Assembly: GCF_000730165.1 (NCBI RefSeq)
Contig: NZ_CP022110.1
Location: forward strand, 1,991,501-2,055,500
DNA length: 64,000 bases
Origin: Nitrospirillum viridazoti CBAmc
Lineage (GTDB): Bacteria; Pseudomonadota; Alphaproteobacteria; Azospirillales; Azospirillaceae
Reading direction: 5' to 3'
Shown: in pieces, positions 29,431 through 33,231 of the stretch
Position numbering within the stretch: position 1 is the stretch's first letter
How the letters are laid out: every line of letters begins with the position of its first letter
Made by a program: the position numbers and the translations under genes
The notes under the pieces: generated by a model
Database searches by the model: none
The model's input: the letters and a program-made list of their open reading frames with translations, nothing else
What the model was told of the DNA's origin: nothing

Positions 29431-30647
29431 CCGAAGGCCGGCGGTGGAAACAGGCCGGCGATGATGCGCACCGACTGCTCCGCCAGCGGGCGGTCAGGCT
29501 CGATGGTGTCGTCGTTGTAGCCGTAATAATCATCCGGCCCTACCGCCTGGAAGACGAAGCCGTCGCGCCGGGGCACGAAGGACACGCCGTTGTAGAACAG
29601 GCCGTAGTGCACATCCTCCTGCGGGATCATGCGCGCCAGCTGGCCCCGCACCGGGATGATGGAGTTGTCGCCCATCAGGGCGCGGGCGCCGTAGCCGGTG
29701 CAGTTCACCAGCACCTTCTGAGCAACGCCGGCGAAATCCGCCGGGGTGTGGAATTCCCGCACCTCGATGCGGCCGCCGTTGGCGTGGAACTCATCCAGCA
29801 ACAGGCGGGCGTAGCTGGAAATGTTGAACACCATGTTGGTGTTGCGCCGAACAAAGCGCGCGCCGAAGGGATGCAGACCCGCCGGCACATCAACGGAATG
29901 GGGTGTCAGGGTTGGCAACAGCTCGTGCTGCAAGGCGTCGGCGAAGGGAGGCCGGCCGTCGGTCACCGGCTCGTGGCGCTCCCGGTTGGCCTGGTCGGAG
30001 ACGTTGTAGTTGTCCACCCACTCGATGGGGGTGCCGGGCAGGCCCAGCAGGCTCTGATAGGCCTGGAACGAGGTCAGGCACATGCGTGCCCACAGCGCCT
30101 TGAACTCCGGCGTGGCGTATTGTTCCAGGCAGATGCGCGAATCCGGTGACCAGACGCCGGTGGCGAAGCTGGACCGGGTGTCAGGCGGCAGGTCCTTGGC
30201 ATAGATGGTGACCTTGGCACCGGCGCGCTGCAGCTGCAGCGCCGTGGTCAGGCCGATGGCCCCGCAACCGATGACGGCGATGTCGCGCTCCCCCAGGGCC
30301 ATGGCCTTCTCCGTCGCGACCAGGCCCGTCCCCCAGGATAGGGACCAGCCGCTGCCGCCGTGGCCGTAATGGTGGACCACCAGCTTCTGGCCGATGCGCT
30401 CCACCTCCAGCCGGGGGCCCTGGGCGCGAAAGGGGCGCGTGCAGACGGTGATGCGGGTGATGCGATCCGGCGTGGCCCGGATGGGCGTCAGCGCCAGGGG
30501 CGACCGCGCCGCCTCGGTCACGCCGCCATGCCGGCCCCCCTCTACATTGACTGCGCAACCCGCCAGCATCAGTGCCGCACCCGCACCGGCCAACAGATCG
30601 CGCCGGCCCACGCCAACGGCCAGACCCTTCATCCGCCCCACCGCCAT
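29427..30647 (-). CDS. Exported FAD oxidoreductase, apparently a circularly permuted D-amino-acid oxidase
   Basis: From the ATG at 30647 (AAGGGG ribosome site) the product has 406 residues. It begins with a twin-arginine signal (GRRDLLAG) that ends in a lipobox (LMLAGC, Cys about 31). The segment TRPFRAQGPRLEVERI then VVHHYGHGGSGWSLSWGT (about 70-107) matches the block that closes ordinary D-amino-acid oxidases. Here it precedes the FAD Rossmann motif IAVIGCGAIGLTTAL (about 123-137). NCTGYGARAL and PVRGQLARM (about 317-341) follow, and the chain stops where the missing C-terminal block would begin. This order reads as a circular permutation. The predicted site is the inner membrane surface or periplasm. 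The substrate is unknown; D-amino acids are an inference. Confidence 0.8.
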   Translation of the reverse strand: MAVGRMKGLAVGVGRRDLLAGAGAALMLAGCAVNVEGGRHGGVTEAARSPLALTPIRATPDRITRITVCTRPFRAQGPRLEVERIGQKLVVHHYGHGGSGWSLSWGTGLVATEKAMALGERDIAVIGCGAIGLTTALQLQRAGAKVTIYAKDLPPDTRSSFATGVWSPDSRICLEQYATPEFKALWARMCLTSFQAYQSLLGLPGTPIEWVDNYNVSDQANRERHEPVTDGRPPFADALQHELLPTLTPHSVDVPAGLHPFGARFVRRNTNMVFNISSYARLLLDEFHANGGRIEVREFHTPADFAGVAQKVLVNCTGYGARALMGDNSIIPVRGQLARMIPQEDVHYGLFYNGVSFVPRRDGFVFQAVGPDDYYGYNDDTIEPDRPLAEQSVRIIAGLFPPPAFG

Positions 30648-30822
30648 GCCATCCCCCTTATCGTTACCGGACGGCATCCAGGGCCGCTTGGAGAAGACGA
30701 TACGGGAAAAGAAGGGCTTGAGAAACCGGGACTTGGCGGGGAAGGTAGACGCCGCCCATCGCGAGCTACGGGACCTGGCCGCCGCCATGTTCGAAAAGAT
30801 CACCCACCTGGCGCGCGACTGA
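30646..30822 (+). CDS. Possible small protein, divergent and overlapping at its start
   Basis: A 58-residue frame begins MPSPLSLPDGIQGRLEKTIR and continues with charged helical sequence (RELRDLAAAMFEKITHLARD at the end). Its composition is more protein-like than most chance frames here. However, its ATG overlaps the ATG of the divergent oxidase gene by two bases and no ribosome site is visible. It may be a chance frame or the remnant of a longer gene. Confidence 0.25.
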   Translation: MPSPLSLPDGIQGRLEKTIREKKGLRNRDLAGKVDAAHRELRDLAAAMFEKITHLARD

Positions 30823-30881
30823 TCCCGCGACAGCCGGGCCGTTGGCCCGGCCACCACTCCCAGGCAGCGCTCATCTGACTA

Positions 30882-30938
30882 CCAATTAGCGGACTGTTGA
30901 CTTCCAATTGGCCGAATATGATATTCCCAATCGGCCGA
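30882..30938. repeat. Three tandem 12-bp repeats upstream of the AAA/DUF4143 gene
   Basis: CCAATTAGCGGA (30882-30893), CCAATTGGCCGA (30904-30915) and CCAATCGGCCGA (30927-30938) are near-identical direct repeats spaced 22 and 23 bp apart, about two helical turns. They overlap the candidate promoter of the following gene. Such face-aligned repeats usually mark a cooperative DNA-binding site. Confidence 0.65.
30897..30925 (+). promoter_or_regulatory. Candidate promoter of the AAA/DUF4143 gene
   Basis: TTGACT (30897-30902), a 17-bp spacer and GATATT (30920-30925) resemble a sigma70 promoter. The middle copy of the tandem repeat lies between the two hexamers. A TATGAT also starts at 30917 but would leave a 14-bp spacer. 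Confidence 0.5.
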
Positions 30939-30954
30939 CGCTTTGAGGGTGAGC

Positions 30955-32175
30955 ATGTTCGAACGGTTTGTGGCGCATCGGGTGGAGGAAGCCCTTTCCG
31001 ACACCCCCGTCGTCCTGGTCGTGGGGCCGCGCCGGGCCGGCAAGACCACGCTCGTCCGCAAGATGGGAACGGACAACCGCGCCTATATCACGCTCGATGA
31101 TCAAACCGCCCTCGCCGCCGCCCAATCCGATCCAGCTGGGTTCATCCGGGGGCTAGATCAGGCCATCATCGATGAGGTGCAGCGCGCGCCGGACCTGCTG
31201 CTGGCGATCAAGAAGACCGTTGATGAGGACTATCGTCCCGGTCGCTTCCTGCTCACGGGCTCCGCGAACGTGCTCACCCTGCCCAAGATCGCCGATAGCC
31301 TGGCGGGGCGAATGGAAACCATCCAGATGCTGCCCTTGGCCAGAGCCGAAATCGCCGGCCGGACACCCAGCTTCTTGGAACGCCTGTTCGACGGCAGGCT
31401 AGGCCCTCAACCGGACGCGCTTGTCGGTGACGAGCTGATCCGCGTCGTCTTGGCCGGGGGATTCCCGGAATCGATCAGCCGCGACAGCGAACGGCGCCGA
31501 CAAGATTGGGCACGCGCCTACCTCACGTCGATCCTGACGCGGGACCTGCGAGACATCGCCGATGTGGAAAAGCTCACCGAGCTGCCGAAATTCGTGCGCC
31601 TACTGGCCGAGCACGCCGGCCAGTTGGTCAACTACTCGCAATTCGGCGCGGGTATCAACGTCAGCCACAAGACCGGCCAGCGCTATGTCGCGCTGCTGGA
31701 ACAGATTTTCTTGGTCGCGACGGTGCAGCCCTGGTTCACCAACGCCCTGAAGCGAATCGTCAAGACGCCCAAACTGCATTTCCTCGATTCCGGCCTGCTG
31801 GCAGCCGTGCGGGGGCTCACGTTCGACCGGATCAAGGCCGACCGCACGGCCTTCGGCGCCCTGCTGGAAAGTTTCGTCTTCTCGGAAGTGCTGAAGCTCA
31901 TCAGCGGCTCAGACCTGCGGGTGACCGCCCACCATTTCCGGGACCGCGACGGCCGCGAGGTGGATGTCATCCTAGAACGTGATGATGGGATGATCGTAGG
32001 CATCGAGGTGAAAGCCAGCGCCACCGTCAAGGCCACCGATTTCACCGGCCTCAAGGCGCTGGCCGAAGCCTGCGGGGAGCGGTTCGCTTATGGCGTCATC
32101 CTGTATGACAGCGCCGACTTCGTTCCCTTTGGGGATAAGCTGGCGGCCGCGCCACTGTCATGCCTGTGGGGCTGA
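30955..32175 (+). CDS. AAA_14 / DUF4143 family ATPase
   Basis: The 406-residue protein has an N-terminal P-loop ATPase domain with Walker A GPRRAGKTT at 24-32, Walker B QAIIDEVQ near 69-76 and sensor-like LLTGSANV near 99-106. A DUF4143 domain fills the rest (about 190-400, with GREVDVILERDDGMIVGIEV toward the end). The ATG at 30955 has a GAGGGTGAG ribosome site; an in-frame TTG 12 bases upstream is less likely. This family is widespread in accessory DNA and its role is unknown. The gene stands alone behind tandem repeats and before an AT-rich tract and a tRNA. Confidence 0.88.
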   Translation: MFERFVAHRVEEALSDTPVVLVVGPRRAGKTTLVRKMGTDNRAYITLDDQTALAAAQSDPAGFIRGLDQAIIDEVQRAPDLLLAIKKTVDEDYRPGRFLLTGSANVLTLPKIADSLAGRMETIQMLPLARAEIAGRTPSFLERLFDGRLGPQPDALVGDELIRVVLAGGFPESISRDSERRRQDWARAYLTSILTRDLRDIADVEKLTELPKFVRLLAEHAGQLVNYSQFGAGINVSHKTGQRYVALLEQIFLVATVQPWFTNALKRIVKTPKLHFLDSGLLAAVRGLTFDRIKADRTAFGALLESFVFSEVLKLISGSDLRVTAHHFRDRDGREVDVILERDDGMIVGIEVKASATVKATDFTGLKALAEACGERFAYGVILYDSADFVPFGDKLAAAPLSCLWG

Positions 32176-32611
32176 GCGGGGAAACTCAATAAAATTTCAC
32201 CTGCTTGGGCCCAAAGTCAGTTCAAGATTAACAATTTATGGAACAATCAGCGACAAATACGACAGATATCGAGTGAAATTTAAATAGACTCCATAAAAGC
32301 AGATGAAATTCCAATAGATAATAGGAAATCCACCTAATTCTTTCTGAAGTCGATCATGGCGTATGGCCGCCAGTGGCTTTACATACCGATACAGGCCACC
32401 CTAGCTAACCGTCTGTTTGAATCATTAACTCGCCGGGAAGCCTGGGAAACGGGCGCACCCGACCAGTCCGCTCCTCCGGATTTCATTGCCCTGAAATGTT
32501 TGTGGATTTTCCTGGCAGGTCACAGGCATCCGCCAATGCGCGTTGCACTTACAGCTCATTTACAGGCGGGGCGCACTTCCCCACCGCAAACAGCTAAGTC
32601 TTTGAAAAGAT
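32176..32611. other. AT-rich gene-free tract between the ATPase gene and tRNA-Ile2
   Basis: The first part of this tract is clearly poorer in GC than its surroundings. It holds a 9-bp inverted repeat, AAATTTCAC (32192-32200) and GTGAAATTT (32273-32281). A 99-codon frame at 32356-32655 runs into the tRNA and is not a gene. I see no integrase, transposase or attachment-site duplication. It looks like residue of foreign DNA. Confidence 0.5.
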
Positions 32612-32687
32612 TGGTGGGCCCGGCCAGATTCGAACTGGCAACCAGACCGTTATGAGCGGCCGGCTCTAACCGTTGAGCTACAGGCCC
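32612..32687 (-). tRNA. tRNA-Ile2 (anticodon CAU, lysidine type)
   Basis: The 76-nt gene folds into a full cloverleaf. The acceptor is GGGCCTG/CGGGCCC, the D-arm begins TAGCTC, the anticodon stem GGCCG/CGGTC holds loop CTCATAA, and the T-arm is GCCAG-TTCGAAT-CTGGC. CCA is encoded. The anticodon is CAU, but the CTCATAA loop and the overall sequence match tRNA-Ile(CAU) rather than tRNA-Met. C34 of this tRNA is changed to lysidine by TilS so that it reads AUA. No clear promoter is seen upstream. Confidence 0.93.
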
Positions 32688-33231
32688 ACGCGGGGCGCAC
32701 TTTGCCGGGTGAGGCAGCGGGTTGCAACACCCTTCATAAATTTTTTACGACACCGCCCAAACCGTTGGAAACGCGCCGCTATCCTTTTGATTTGACGTGC
32801 GTTGCCAGGTGAATGCCATGTTGCCGCCTCAAGACTGAGGTGCTACCTTTGCAAGGCTTGGGACGGTGACGGCATCCTTTGTCCAGGCGGCAAATGGCCG
32901 CGGTGGCACCTGGGGTAGCGGTAACACCCGGCGAACGCGGGCCCCGGCAGGGCGACCCGCATGAGGCTCCGGCCAACGGGGTCCGCCAAAGCGGTTGAGT
33001 GTCAGGCCCAGGGGCATGCGCGTCCAGGGCCGGGGGGACATATACGCGAAGGGGGGCCAGCGGCAGCAATCCGACTTAAGACGTCCAACCGGACGCCCGT
33101 TACCGGGCCCCGCGGGGCCACCAGCGGCACGGCGCCGCCACCGGGCCGGGACGGTCCCGGGCCAGGAGCGTGAACGCCAGCACCAGCCCCGCCGCCAGCC
33201 AATACCAGAACATCCATGGGAGGAAGTCACG
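32688..33231. other. Gene-free interval between tRNA-Ile2 and the MHS transporter gene
   Basis: This 544-bp interval has GC-rich palindromes near 33105-33170 and a CCTC/GAGG hairpin near 32826-32843. Frames crossing it on either strand have no recognisable protein content. It should contain the promoters of both flanking genes, but I could not identify them. Confidence 0.4.

Follow-up and report, generated by a model that had tools for sequence, protein, structure and literature searches.

A tandem repeat array on the promoter of a PDC-S01 gene co-varies with the ATPase encoded behind it

Introduction

Which protein reads a set of short direct repeats that covers a promoter when no regulator gene lies beside it? 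The question is raised by a locus in a 64,000-nucleotide stretch of the Nitrospirillum viridazoti CBAmc genome (contig NZ_CP022110.1; this whole stretch is called the window here), where the repeats lie upstream of a gene encoding an ATPase with a DUF4143 domain. An initial annotation, made from the letters alone, left it open whether the ATPase itself or an outside factor binds them. Here we computed the array, its overlap with the promoter, its spread among relatives and its covariation with the protein, and found no second tandem array in the genome; these results lead us to suggest that the ATPase perhaps switches off its own gene.

Repeats on a promoter

Three copies of a 12-bp unit lie on the forward strand at 30882-30893 (R1, CCAATTAGCGGA), 30904-30915 (R2, CCAATTGGCCGA; the full unit covers about 30902-30915) and 30927-30938 (R3, CCAATCGGCCGA), with steps of 22 bp from R1 to R2 and 23 bp from R2 to R3 in the window sequence. 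The initial annotation had these sequences, positions and steps exactly right. An array finder added a degenerate fourth copy on the same strand, R0 (CCAGGCAGCGCT, 30860-30871), 22 bp 5' of R1, with a recognisable counterpart in 36 of 57 close loci. The annotation's term 'helically phased' is true only in the rough sense that the copies are some two turns apart: 22-23 bp corresponds to 2.1-2.2 turns at 10.5 bp per turn, but each copy is rotated by about 35-70 degrees relative to the last, so phasing is not exact.

Searching the genome for the 12-mer, a check proposed with the annotation, gave a different answer for single copies and for pairs. With up to two mismatches allowed, the window holds 43 single matches against 46.4 expected, and seven of the 10 exact matches to the IUPAC 12-mer in the genome are scattered singles. 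For the spaced pair CCAATNNGC-N10-14-CCAATNNGC, on the other hand, the 7.38 Mb genome has just two matches, which both lie inside the window array; the reversed control of this pair has no match there, nor was a second tandem array of the window unit found. Single 12-mers are thus at chance frequency, and it is the tandem arrangement that is special.

The middle copy had been placed between the two boxes of a promoter, and this is what we find. Because sigma-70-like hexamers lie at 30897-30902 (-35, TTGACT, abutting R2) and 30920-30925 (-10, GATATT), both on the forward strand, R2 fills the 17-bp spacer between them, while R1 lies 5' of the -35 box and is conserved among relatives, and R3 directly follows the -10 box, on the transcription start expected (though only inferred) from it. 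TTGACT-17-GATATT is the sole sigma-70-like site found in 30600-32500, where shuffled sequences average 0.5. Of 78 close loci, 73 have TTGACT here; the -10 box is less uniform, with GATAGT its commonest form (31 of the 78) and A at its second place in 57. At 50-70% identity to the window protein, TTGA abuts the unit in seven of eight array loci (the exception is L271), and below 50% no consistent -35 position was found. The pitch of the array coincides with the start-to-start distance of the hexamers (23 bp, with a 17-bp spacer), and therefore the hexamers fall in the linkers between units. A repeat that fills the spacer and covers the start is a layout that usually blocks polymerase; that the array blocks this promoter is inferred from the overlap, without expression data. 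When 385 genomes of the class were searched for the close clade's promoter as one composite pattern, two matched, namely the genome of the window and that of an 85% homologue (G140); the pattern missed a 78% homologue (G326) whose spacing is one base shorter.

An ATPase with a winged helix and a nuclease-like domain

The first gene after the array encodes the ATPase, of 406 amino acids (30955-32175, forward strand), and the divergent neighbour is a DAO-family gene; no regulator gene adjoins the array, as had been noted at the outset. Pfam recognises AAA_14 (residues 17-133; 31003-31353) and DUF4143, no replication initiator family being among the Pfam matches of the protein, and the PADLOC profile for the phage-defence candidate PDC-S01, PDLC04790, matches residues 2-405 with an E-value of 1.2e-168. 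It is the only DUF4143 gene found in the genome. In an AlphaFold2 model (pLDDT 90.8, pTM 0.91), helices 227-233 and 238-250 followed by a strand form a winged helix, with 238-250 as the recognition helix; codons 237-239 (S, H, K; 31663-31671) encode the N-terminal end of that helix. Further on, strands 323-329 and 335-342 of a nuclease-like domain enclose a beta-hairpin tip at 330-334, which includes residues 331-332 (R, D; 31945-31950).

Both halves of the protein have conserved motif residues: G24, R26, G29, K30, T32 and D73-E74 of the Walker A and B motifs are invariant among 48 sequences, and so are E335, D337, E351 and K353 (the catalytic E/D and ExK). Searches with the full model gave as best matches 2qen (Z 15.0, rmsd 4.7, 249 residues aligned) and SSO1545 (2fna; Z 14.4, rmsd 3.2, 240 aligned), archaeal STAND-type ATPases, followed by NLR/CED-4 proteins, including the plant NLR RPP1 (Z 13.8, rmsd 5.0, 240 aligned). 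A Walker A/B core followed by a winged helix, with fold matches that span residues 1-287, is what we call STAND/NLR-like here. The match list of the C-terminal domain alone is headed by nucleases of the restriction-endonuclease-like PD-(D/E)XK fold, namely Can2 at the top (Z 9.2, rmsd 3.9, 147 aligned), a chain of the McrBC complex (Z 8.5, rmsd 3.3, 128 aligned), Card1 and restriction enzymes; Foldseek E-values for this domain are weak (best 1.9e-3, none below 0.001). The window protein is thus a PDC-S01 protein that resembles STAND ATPases in fold and ends in a domain like that of PD-(D/E)XK nucleases; DNA cleavage and anti-phage activity are putative.

Arrays upstream of relatives

The initial annotation would have been refuted by the absence of the repeats upstream of close homologues together with their random occurrence elsewhere in the genome. 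Removal of 11 open reading frames without a recognised Walker A motif, of duplicates and of those with short upstream sequences left 227 distinct relatives out of 294, and their upstream regions were thinned to 184 for lag statistics, with 182 downstream regions as controls. When each upstream region was matched against itself (at least 11 of 13 letters), a lag of 22 appeared in 39 of the 184 and a lag of 23 in 36, as against 0-3 regions at other lags from 9 to 43; the harmonics at 44 and 45 appeared in 18 and 8. No lag exceeded three regions among the downstream controls or one among shuffles. Every identity class shows the peaks, with 27 regions at lag 22 and 11 at lag 23 at 70% identity or more (n = 46), 10 and 9 at 40-70% (n = 25), and a peak at lag 23 (16 regions) with its harmonic at 46 (11 regions) below 40% (n = 113).

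The array finder gives the same separation: at score 7 it calls arrays in 83 of the 184 upstream regions and in five of the 182 downstream ones, and at score 9 in 66 and none. Steps within the arrays are 22 bp (118) or 23 bp (107), rarely 21 (3) or 24 (1). Arrays precede 44 of 46 relatives that are at least 70% identical to the window protein, 7/7 at 50-70% and 15/18 at 40-50%; they thin out to 15/72 at 30-40%, 2/39 at 25-30% and 0/2 below that, and a relative from Thermus, 33% identical, lacks a 22-23 bp array in its upstream region. Once loci from plasmids and viral contigs are included, 18 of 18 loci examined at 50-70% reach score 7 (L302, from a viral contig, stands outside this count). 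An 80-locus set of relatives shares 73 loci with the 227, of which all score at least 6 and 70 at least 7; L034 ends at a contig edge, and L070, whose match starts at residue 16, shows no array. Since the array is kept upstream of relatives, the refutation fails for close homologues, and the window array is one case of a general trait of DUF4143/AAA_14 genes. Nearly identical arrays accompany their gene in Roseomonas, Rhodopseudomonas and Sphingopyxis (L037, L039, L043). One relative (L123/L094, G065:C118) has two in-frame stops, and the repeats upstream of it look eroded.

A unit private to each lineage

What is conserved is the arrangement rather than the letters. The unit is shared within a locus and varies between lineages, examples being CCAATYAGCSG, ACAAATCTGCCG, TTCTAATTATCATG, TTTCAATYRGTCGG, ATTCCGAATTGGACG, TTTACAATTGGACG, TATAAAAACGCGG and CTAATAGCCGTTTTC. 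Similarity between units follows protein identity overall, from 0.48 below 30% identity to 0.93 above 90%, but unevenly (0.86 at 60-70% and 0.77 at 70-80%). A search of seven genomes for tandem pairs of the TTTCAATYRGTC type, the unit of another lineage, returned 14 overlapping matches in five arrays, every one of which lies directly upstream of a DUF4143/AAA_14-family gene.

Paralogues within one genome differ in unit in all 12 of the pairs compared. This does not amount to selected orthogonality, for which there was no sign in the 12 pairs: their units differ no more than protein identity predicts. Three genomes (G406, G407, G075) have 13-14 family matches each in about 3-4 Mb, some of them fragments, and the paralogue pairs examined there differ in unit.

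Residues of the ATPase that follow the repeat letters

If the unit varies, does the protein vary with it? A pairwise window scan over the whole family (L215 and L061 excluded by hand) scored best in the nuclease-like domain (residue 329, r 0.36) and lower in the winged helix (0.22); it was confounded by clade structure and could not name a site. For this reason we scanned 57 loci (78 close loci thinned below 97% identity), pairing 406 protein columns with 15 positions of the unit. The column scans use copy R2 only, and counts over all copies were made separately.

The top associations join residues 331, 332 and 368 to positions 9, 11 and 12, and residues 237-239 to positions 1 and 3. In the model these residues fall on the recognition helix and the hairpin tip. 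H238 is the sole column of the 406 that separates the five loci with T at position 3, and K239 the sole one that separates the seven with A there, while three columns, R331, D332 and A368, separate the 16 loci with A at position 11, that is, with a switched 3' half. Counted over all copies, H238-K239 goes with C at position 3 (135/135), Y238-K239 with T (14/15), and L-R or Q-R at 238-239 with A (6/6). In the five loci with H238-R239, position 3 is A in R2 alone, R1 and R3 keeping C in 5/5. In the 3' half, loci with Q331 have A at position 11 in 16/16 R2, 10/16 R1 and 7/16 R3 copies, against 0, 0 and 1 of 40 for R331; the covariation is cleanest for R2. Residue 237 shows a tendency only: position 1 of R2 is T in 32 of 40 loci with S237 and C in 9/9 with T237.

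A tree was built without the covarying columns. On it Y238 arose three times, each time with T3, and two of these are countable on starred branches. After addition of eight plasmid loci and the viral-contig locus L302, every one of the 66 loci is consistent in having Y238 and T3 together or neither, and each undergoes six changes on the 66-locus tree, three on well-supported branches; on either tree, sign tests confined to such branches have too few pairs for significance (p 0.25 with 66 loci). In L302 the CTAAT units were seen first, tyrosine was expected at residue 238, and it was then found. The base-3 letters of L302 and the plasmid loci were read by eye, and only eight of 16 plasmid loci entered the set because L342 could not be aligned in its reading frame and the units of L335-L341 are in a different register. 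The 3' half is less secure. The change from RD to QQ at 331-332 was one event in the close clade, so common ancestry accounts for part of the perfect score there. The 57% clade follows the rule less strictly: Q332 occurs again in L239, in L125 and L189, and in L338, with TCA copies alongside TCG or other copies; loci with D332 (L126, L095, L303) have TCG or CCG in every copy, and those with E332 are mixed. L334, which has QQ, shows A11 in one of four copies when read by eye.

The letters of the unit change with residues of the ATPase, and therefore the ATPase very probably reads its own promoter. Of the two candidates originally named, the residue-base covariation and the differing paralogue units (12/12) favour the ATPase over an outside factor as reader of the array, a preference that rests on sequence comparison and not on binding data.

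A gene on an insertion beside a tRNA

The gene is carried by a lineage-specific insertion of about 1.9 kb (30660-32611, the left edge lying between 30610 and 30734) between the DAO gene and a tRNA-Met gene (32612-32687, reverse strand), which forms the right edge, with the insertion at its 3' end. The left flank is present in six of six congeners searched, and all five inspected have both flanks but lack the gene. About 170-225 bp separate the flanks in three of the five, whereas in the other two some 0.9 kb of other DNA lies there. Because these two (L345 and L346, the latter with an open reading frame of 264 amino acids) hold other DNA there, the site looks like a small insertion hotspot. 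A 16-nt direct repeat (15/16 identical) flanks the tRNA-Met gene at 32563-32578 and 32687-32702.

Relatives are patchy, occurring at any identity in 71 of 385 genomes of the class and in 437 of 72,556 plasmid records. Phage records hold 13, all below 60% identity, and viral contigs hold 15 loci by alignment search, where a search with the single sequence found no relative. Related open reading frames lie upstream in 48 of 81 close loci, although the cluster includes antisense reading frames, and similar neighbour frames were seen by eye in L012, L018, L033 and L048. Among the flanking genes that were scanned, those upstream encode ParB_N (L009) and ArdC (L015), and those downstream HamA and HamB (L030), TrlF (L015), a Druantia-like helicase (L009), a DISARM-like SNF2 helicase (L037) and a Ppl-like AAA_21 protein (L068); the neighbour in L084 matched nothing. 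In L009, L015, L030 and L037 the gene sits between a mobile-element part (the ParB_N gene in L009, ArdC in L015) and changing defence cargo, as if it marked the entry of a cargo slot. On three rhizobial plasmids (L327, L328, L329) a DUF1173 gene follows and, in two, a strawberry-notch family gene precedes. The window gene itself, unlike some close relatives, has no defence system beside it.

Proposed autorepression and its alternatives

We consider it likely that the ATPase binds its own promoter array head-to-tail and represses itself, both binding and repression being inferred. The array would be the private operator of the gene directly behind it, with one ATPase protomer on each unit of 12-14 bp. 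The start of the winged-helix recognition helix (237-239) may read the 5' half of the unit, at positions 1 and 3, and the tip of the PD-(D/E)XK-like hairpin (331-332, perhaps with 368) may read positions 9-12 in the 3' half. Direct repeats with a pitch of 22-23 bp would place the protomers head-to-tail, a way in which STAND and AAA+ ATPases can assemble; the geometry hints at nucleotide-driven oligomerisation but is no more than suggestive. Bound protein would cover the -35 box, spacer, -10 box and start site and so repress its own transcription, and a trigger that shifts the nucleotide or oligomer state, possibly infection, would free the promoter for a burst of nuclease-ATPase. Direct binding, assembly, repression and trigger are all inferences for the close clade, in which we have neither binding nor expression data.

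Could the ATPase be merely the target gene of a chromosomal regulator from outside? A LysR-family gene does lie about 1.4 kb upstream in the window, and dedicated small repressors of defence islands exist, as the accessible parts of the reports on RptR (PMC12255303) and BrxR/CapW indicate. We nevertheless think this very unlikely, as the unit letters follow residues of the ATPase, near-identical arrays accompany the gene in Roseomonas, Rhodopseudomonas and Sphingopyxis, paralogues of one genome differ in unit, and no regulator gene is adjacent to the array in the window. A function as an iteron-like or partition-like site of a mobile element has still less to recommend it and seems barely credible to us. 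Relatives are often on mobile elements, the one upstream neighbour of its kind that was scanned (L009) has a ParB_N domain, an AT-rich stretch follows the window gene (GC 0.41 at 32200-32399), and the pitch of iterons in plasmid origins is similar to 22-23 bp; but the window gene belongs to a large contig and has no neighbours of this sort, and the array sits on a promoter and co-varies with the ATPase. That the repeats arose by chance and do nothing, as the chance rate of single 12-mers might suggest, is refuted by the conservation of the array, and the uniqueness of the tandem pair in the genome and the lag peaks leave this idea virtually no standing.

The sign of regulation is harder to settle, since the overlap of array and promoter leaves it undetermined. 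Were the ATPase an activator, or the array a docking or assembly site, the match between pitch and hexamer spacing could keep the hexamers readable in the linkers; against this stands the layout of the close clade, where R2 takes up the spacer and R3 lies over the expected start, and we regard the reading as unlikely. A more speculative reading, which we also doubt, makes the array more than an operator: as a docking site it would nucleate a head-to-tail filament of the STAND nuclease and hold it in a harmless state, serving as an antidote encoded in DNA and as an identity tag; infection that degrades or sequesters host DNA, or loss of the island, would then free the nuclease to attack. If so, array and recognition surface would evolve as lock and key, with a private lock for each mobile copy.

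Autorepression by the ATPase, our preferred reading, would give PDC-S01 a testable mechanism, that of a STAND-like nuclease recognising a private, co-evolving array on its own promoter through a residue-to-base code at two places (237-239 and 331-332). If it is true, an NLR-like winged helix acts as a sequence-specific DNA reader, and the family supplies autoregulated promoters of many specificities.

Relation to known systems

PDC-S01, an ATPase fused to a PD-(D/E)-X-K domain, ranks fourth by frequency among the defences of prokaryotes according to the accessible parts of PMC12988326, where most such candidates are said to await experimental validation. Neither a promoter array nor autoregulation of PDC-S01 is mentioned in the accessible parts of that paper and of PMC13356809, and in the literature searched, which left subscription journals and bioRxiv mostly outside, we found no report of an array upstream of DUF4143/PDC-S01 genes. 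The sole expression result found for the DUF4143 family concerns TT_P0211, an AAA_14/DUF4143 gene of Thermus thermophilus whose RNA, in the part of the report available, is 6.6-fold higher with plasmid DNA, an effect seen only when TtAgo is present (PMC4406477). We take the ATP-binding gene TT_RS11170 on pTT27 for TT_P0211, although the match of names is unverified; being the 33% identical relative without a 22-23 bp array, it bears on inducibility only loosely. In place of an array, an inverted repeat, TGAATGA..TCATTCA, was seen by eye just ahead of the start codon of the DUF4143-like gene on pTT27 (L351, 5950-6700), perhaps another kind of operator.

The closest regulatory analogue is RptR of an E. 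coli defence island, which represses its own promoter as we propose for the ATPase (PMC12255303). From what is accessible of that report, RptR is a dedicated 9-kDa homodimer that binds 9-bp repeats with a 6-bp palindrome, itself conserved across genomes, whereas the proposed reader here is an effector-like ATPase-nuclease and its units are non-palindromic, spaced at 22-23 bp and variable between lineages. Nor does the window have a separate small repressor gene beside the operator, as in the RptR type. The WYL regulators BrxR/CapW likewise exert transcriptional control over phage-defence loci, but they are encoded by a separate regulator gene, and the accessible accounts of them contain no array of the kind seen in the window.

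For the protein itself the nearest likenesses are of fold. The archaeal ATPases 2qen and SSO1545 (2fna) and the NLR/CED-4 proteins resemble the window protein, but nothing in our analysis showed them to have a nuclease domain or to read an operator. The PD-(D/E)XK nucleases are the best fold matches of its C-terminal domain; in the window protein, covariation with the putative operator of its own gene involves a hairpin tip that lies next to the catalytic motif.
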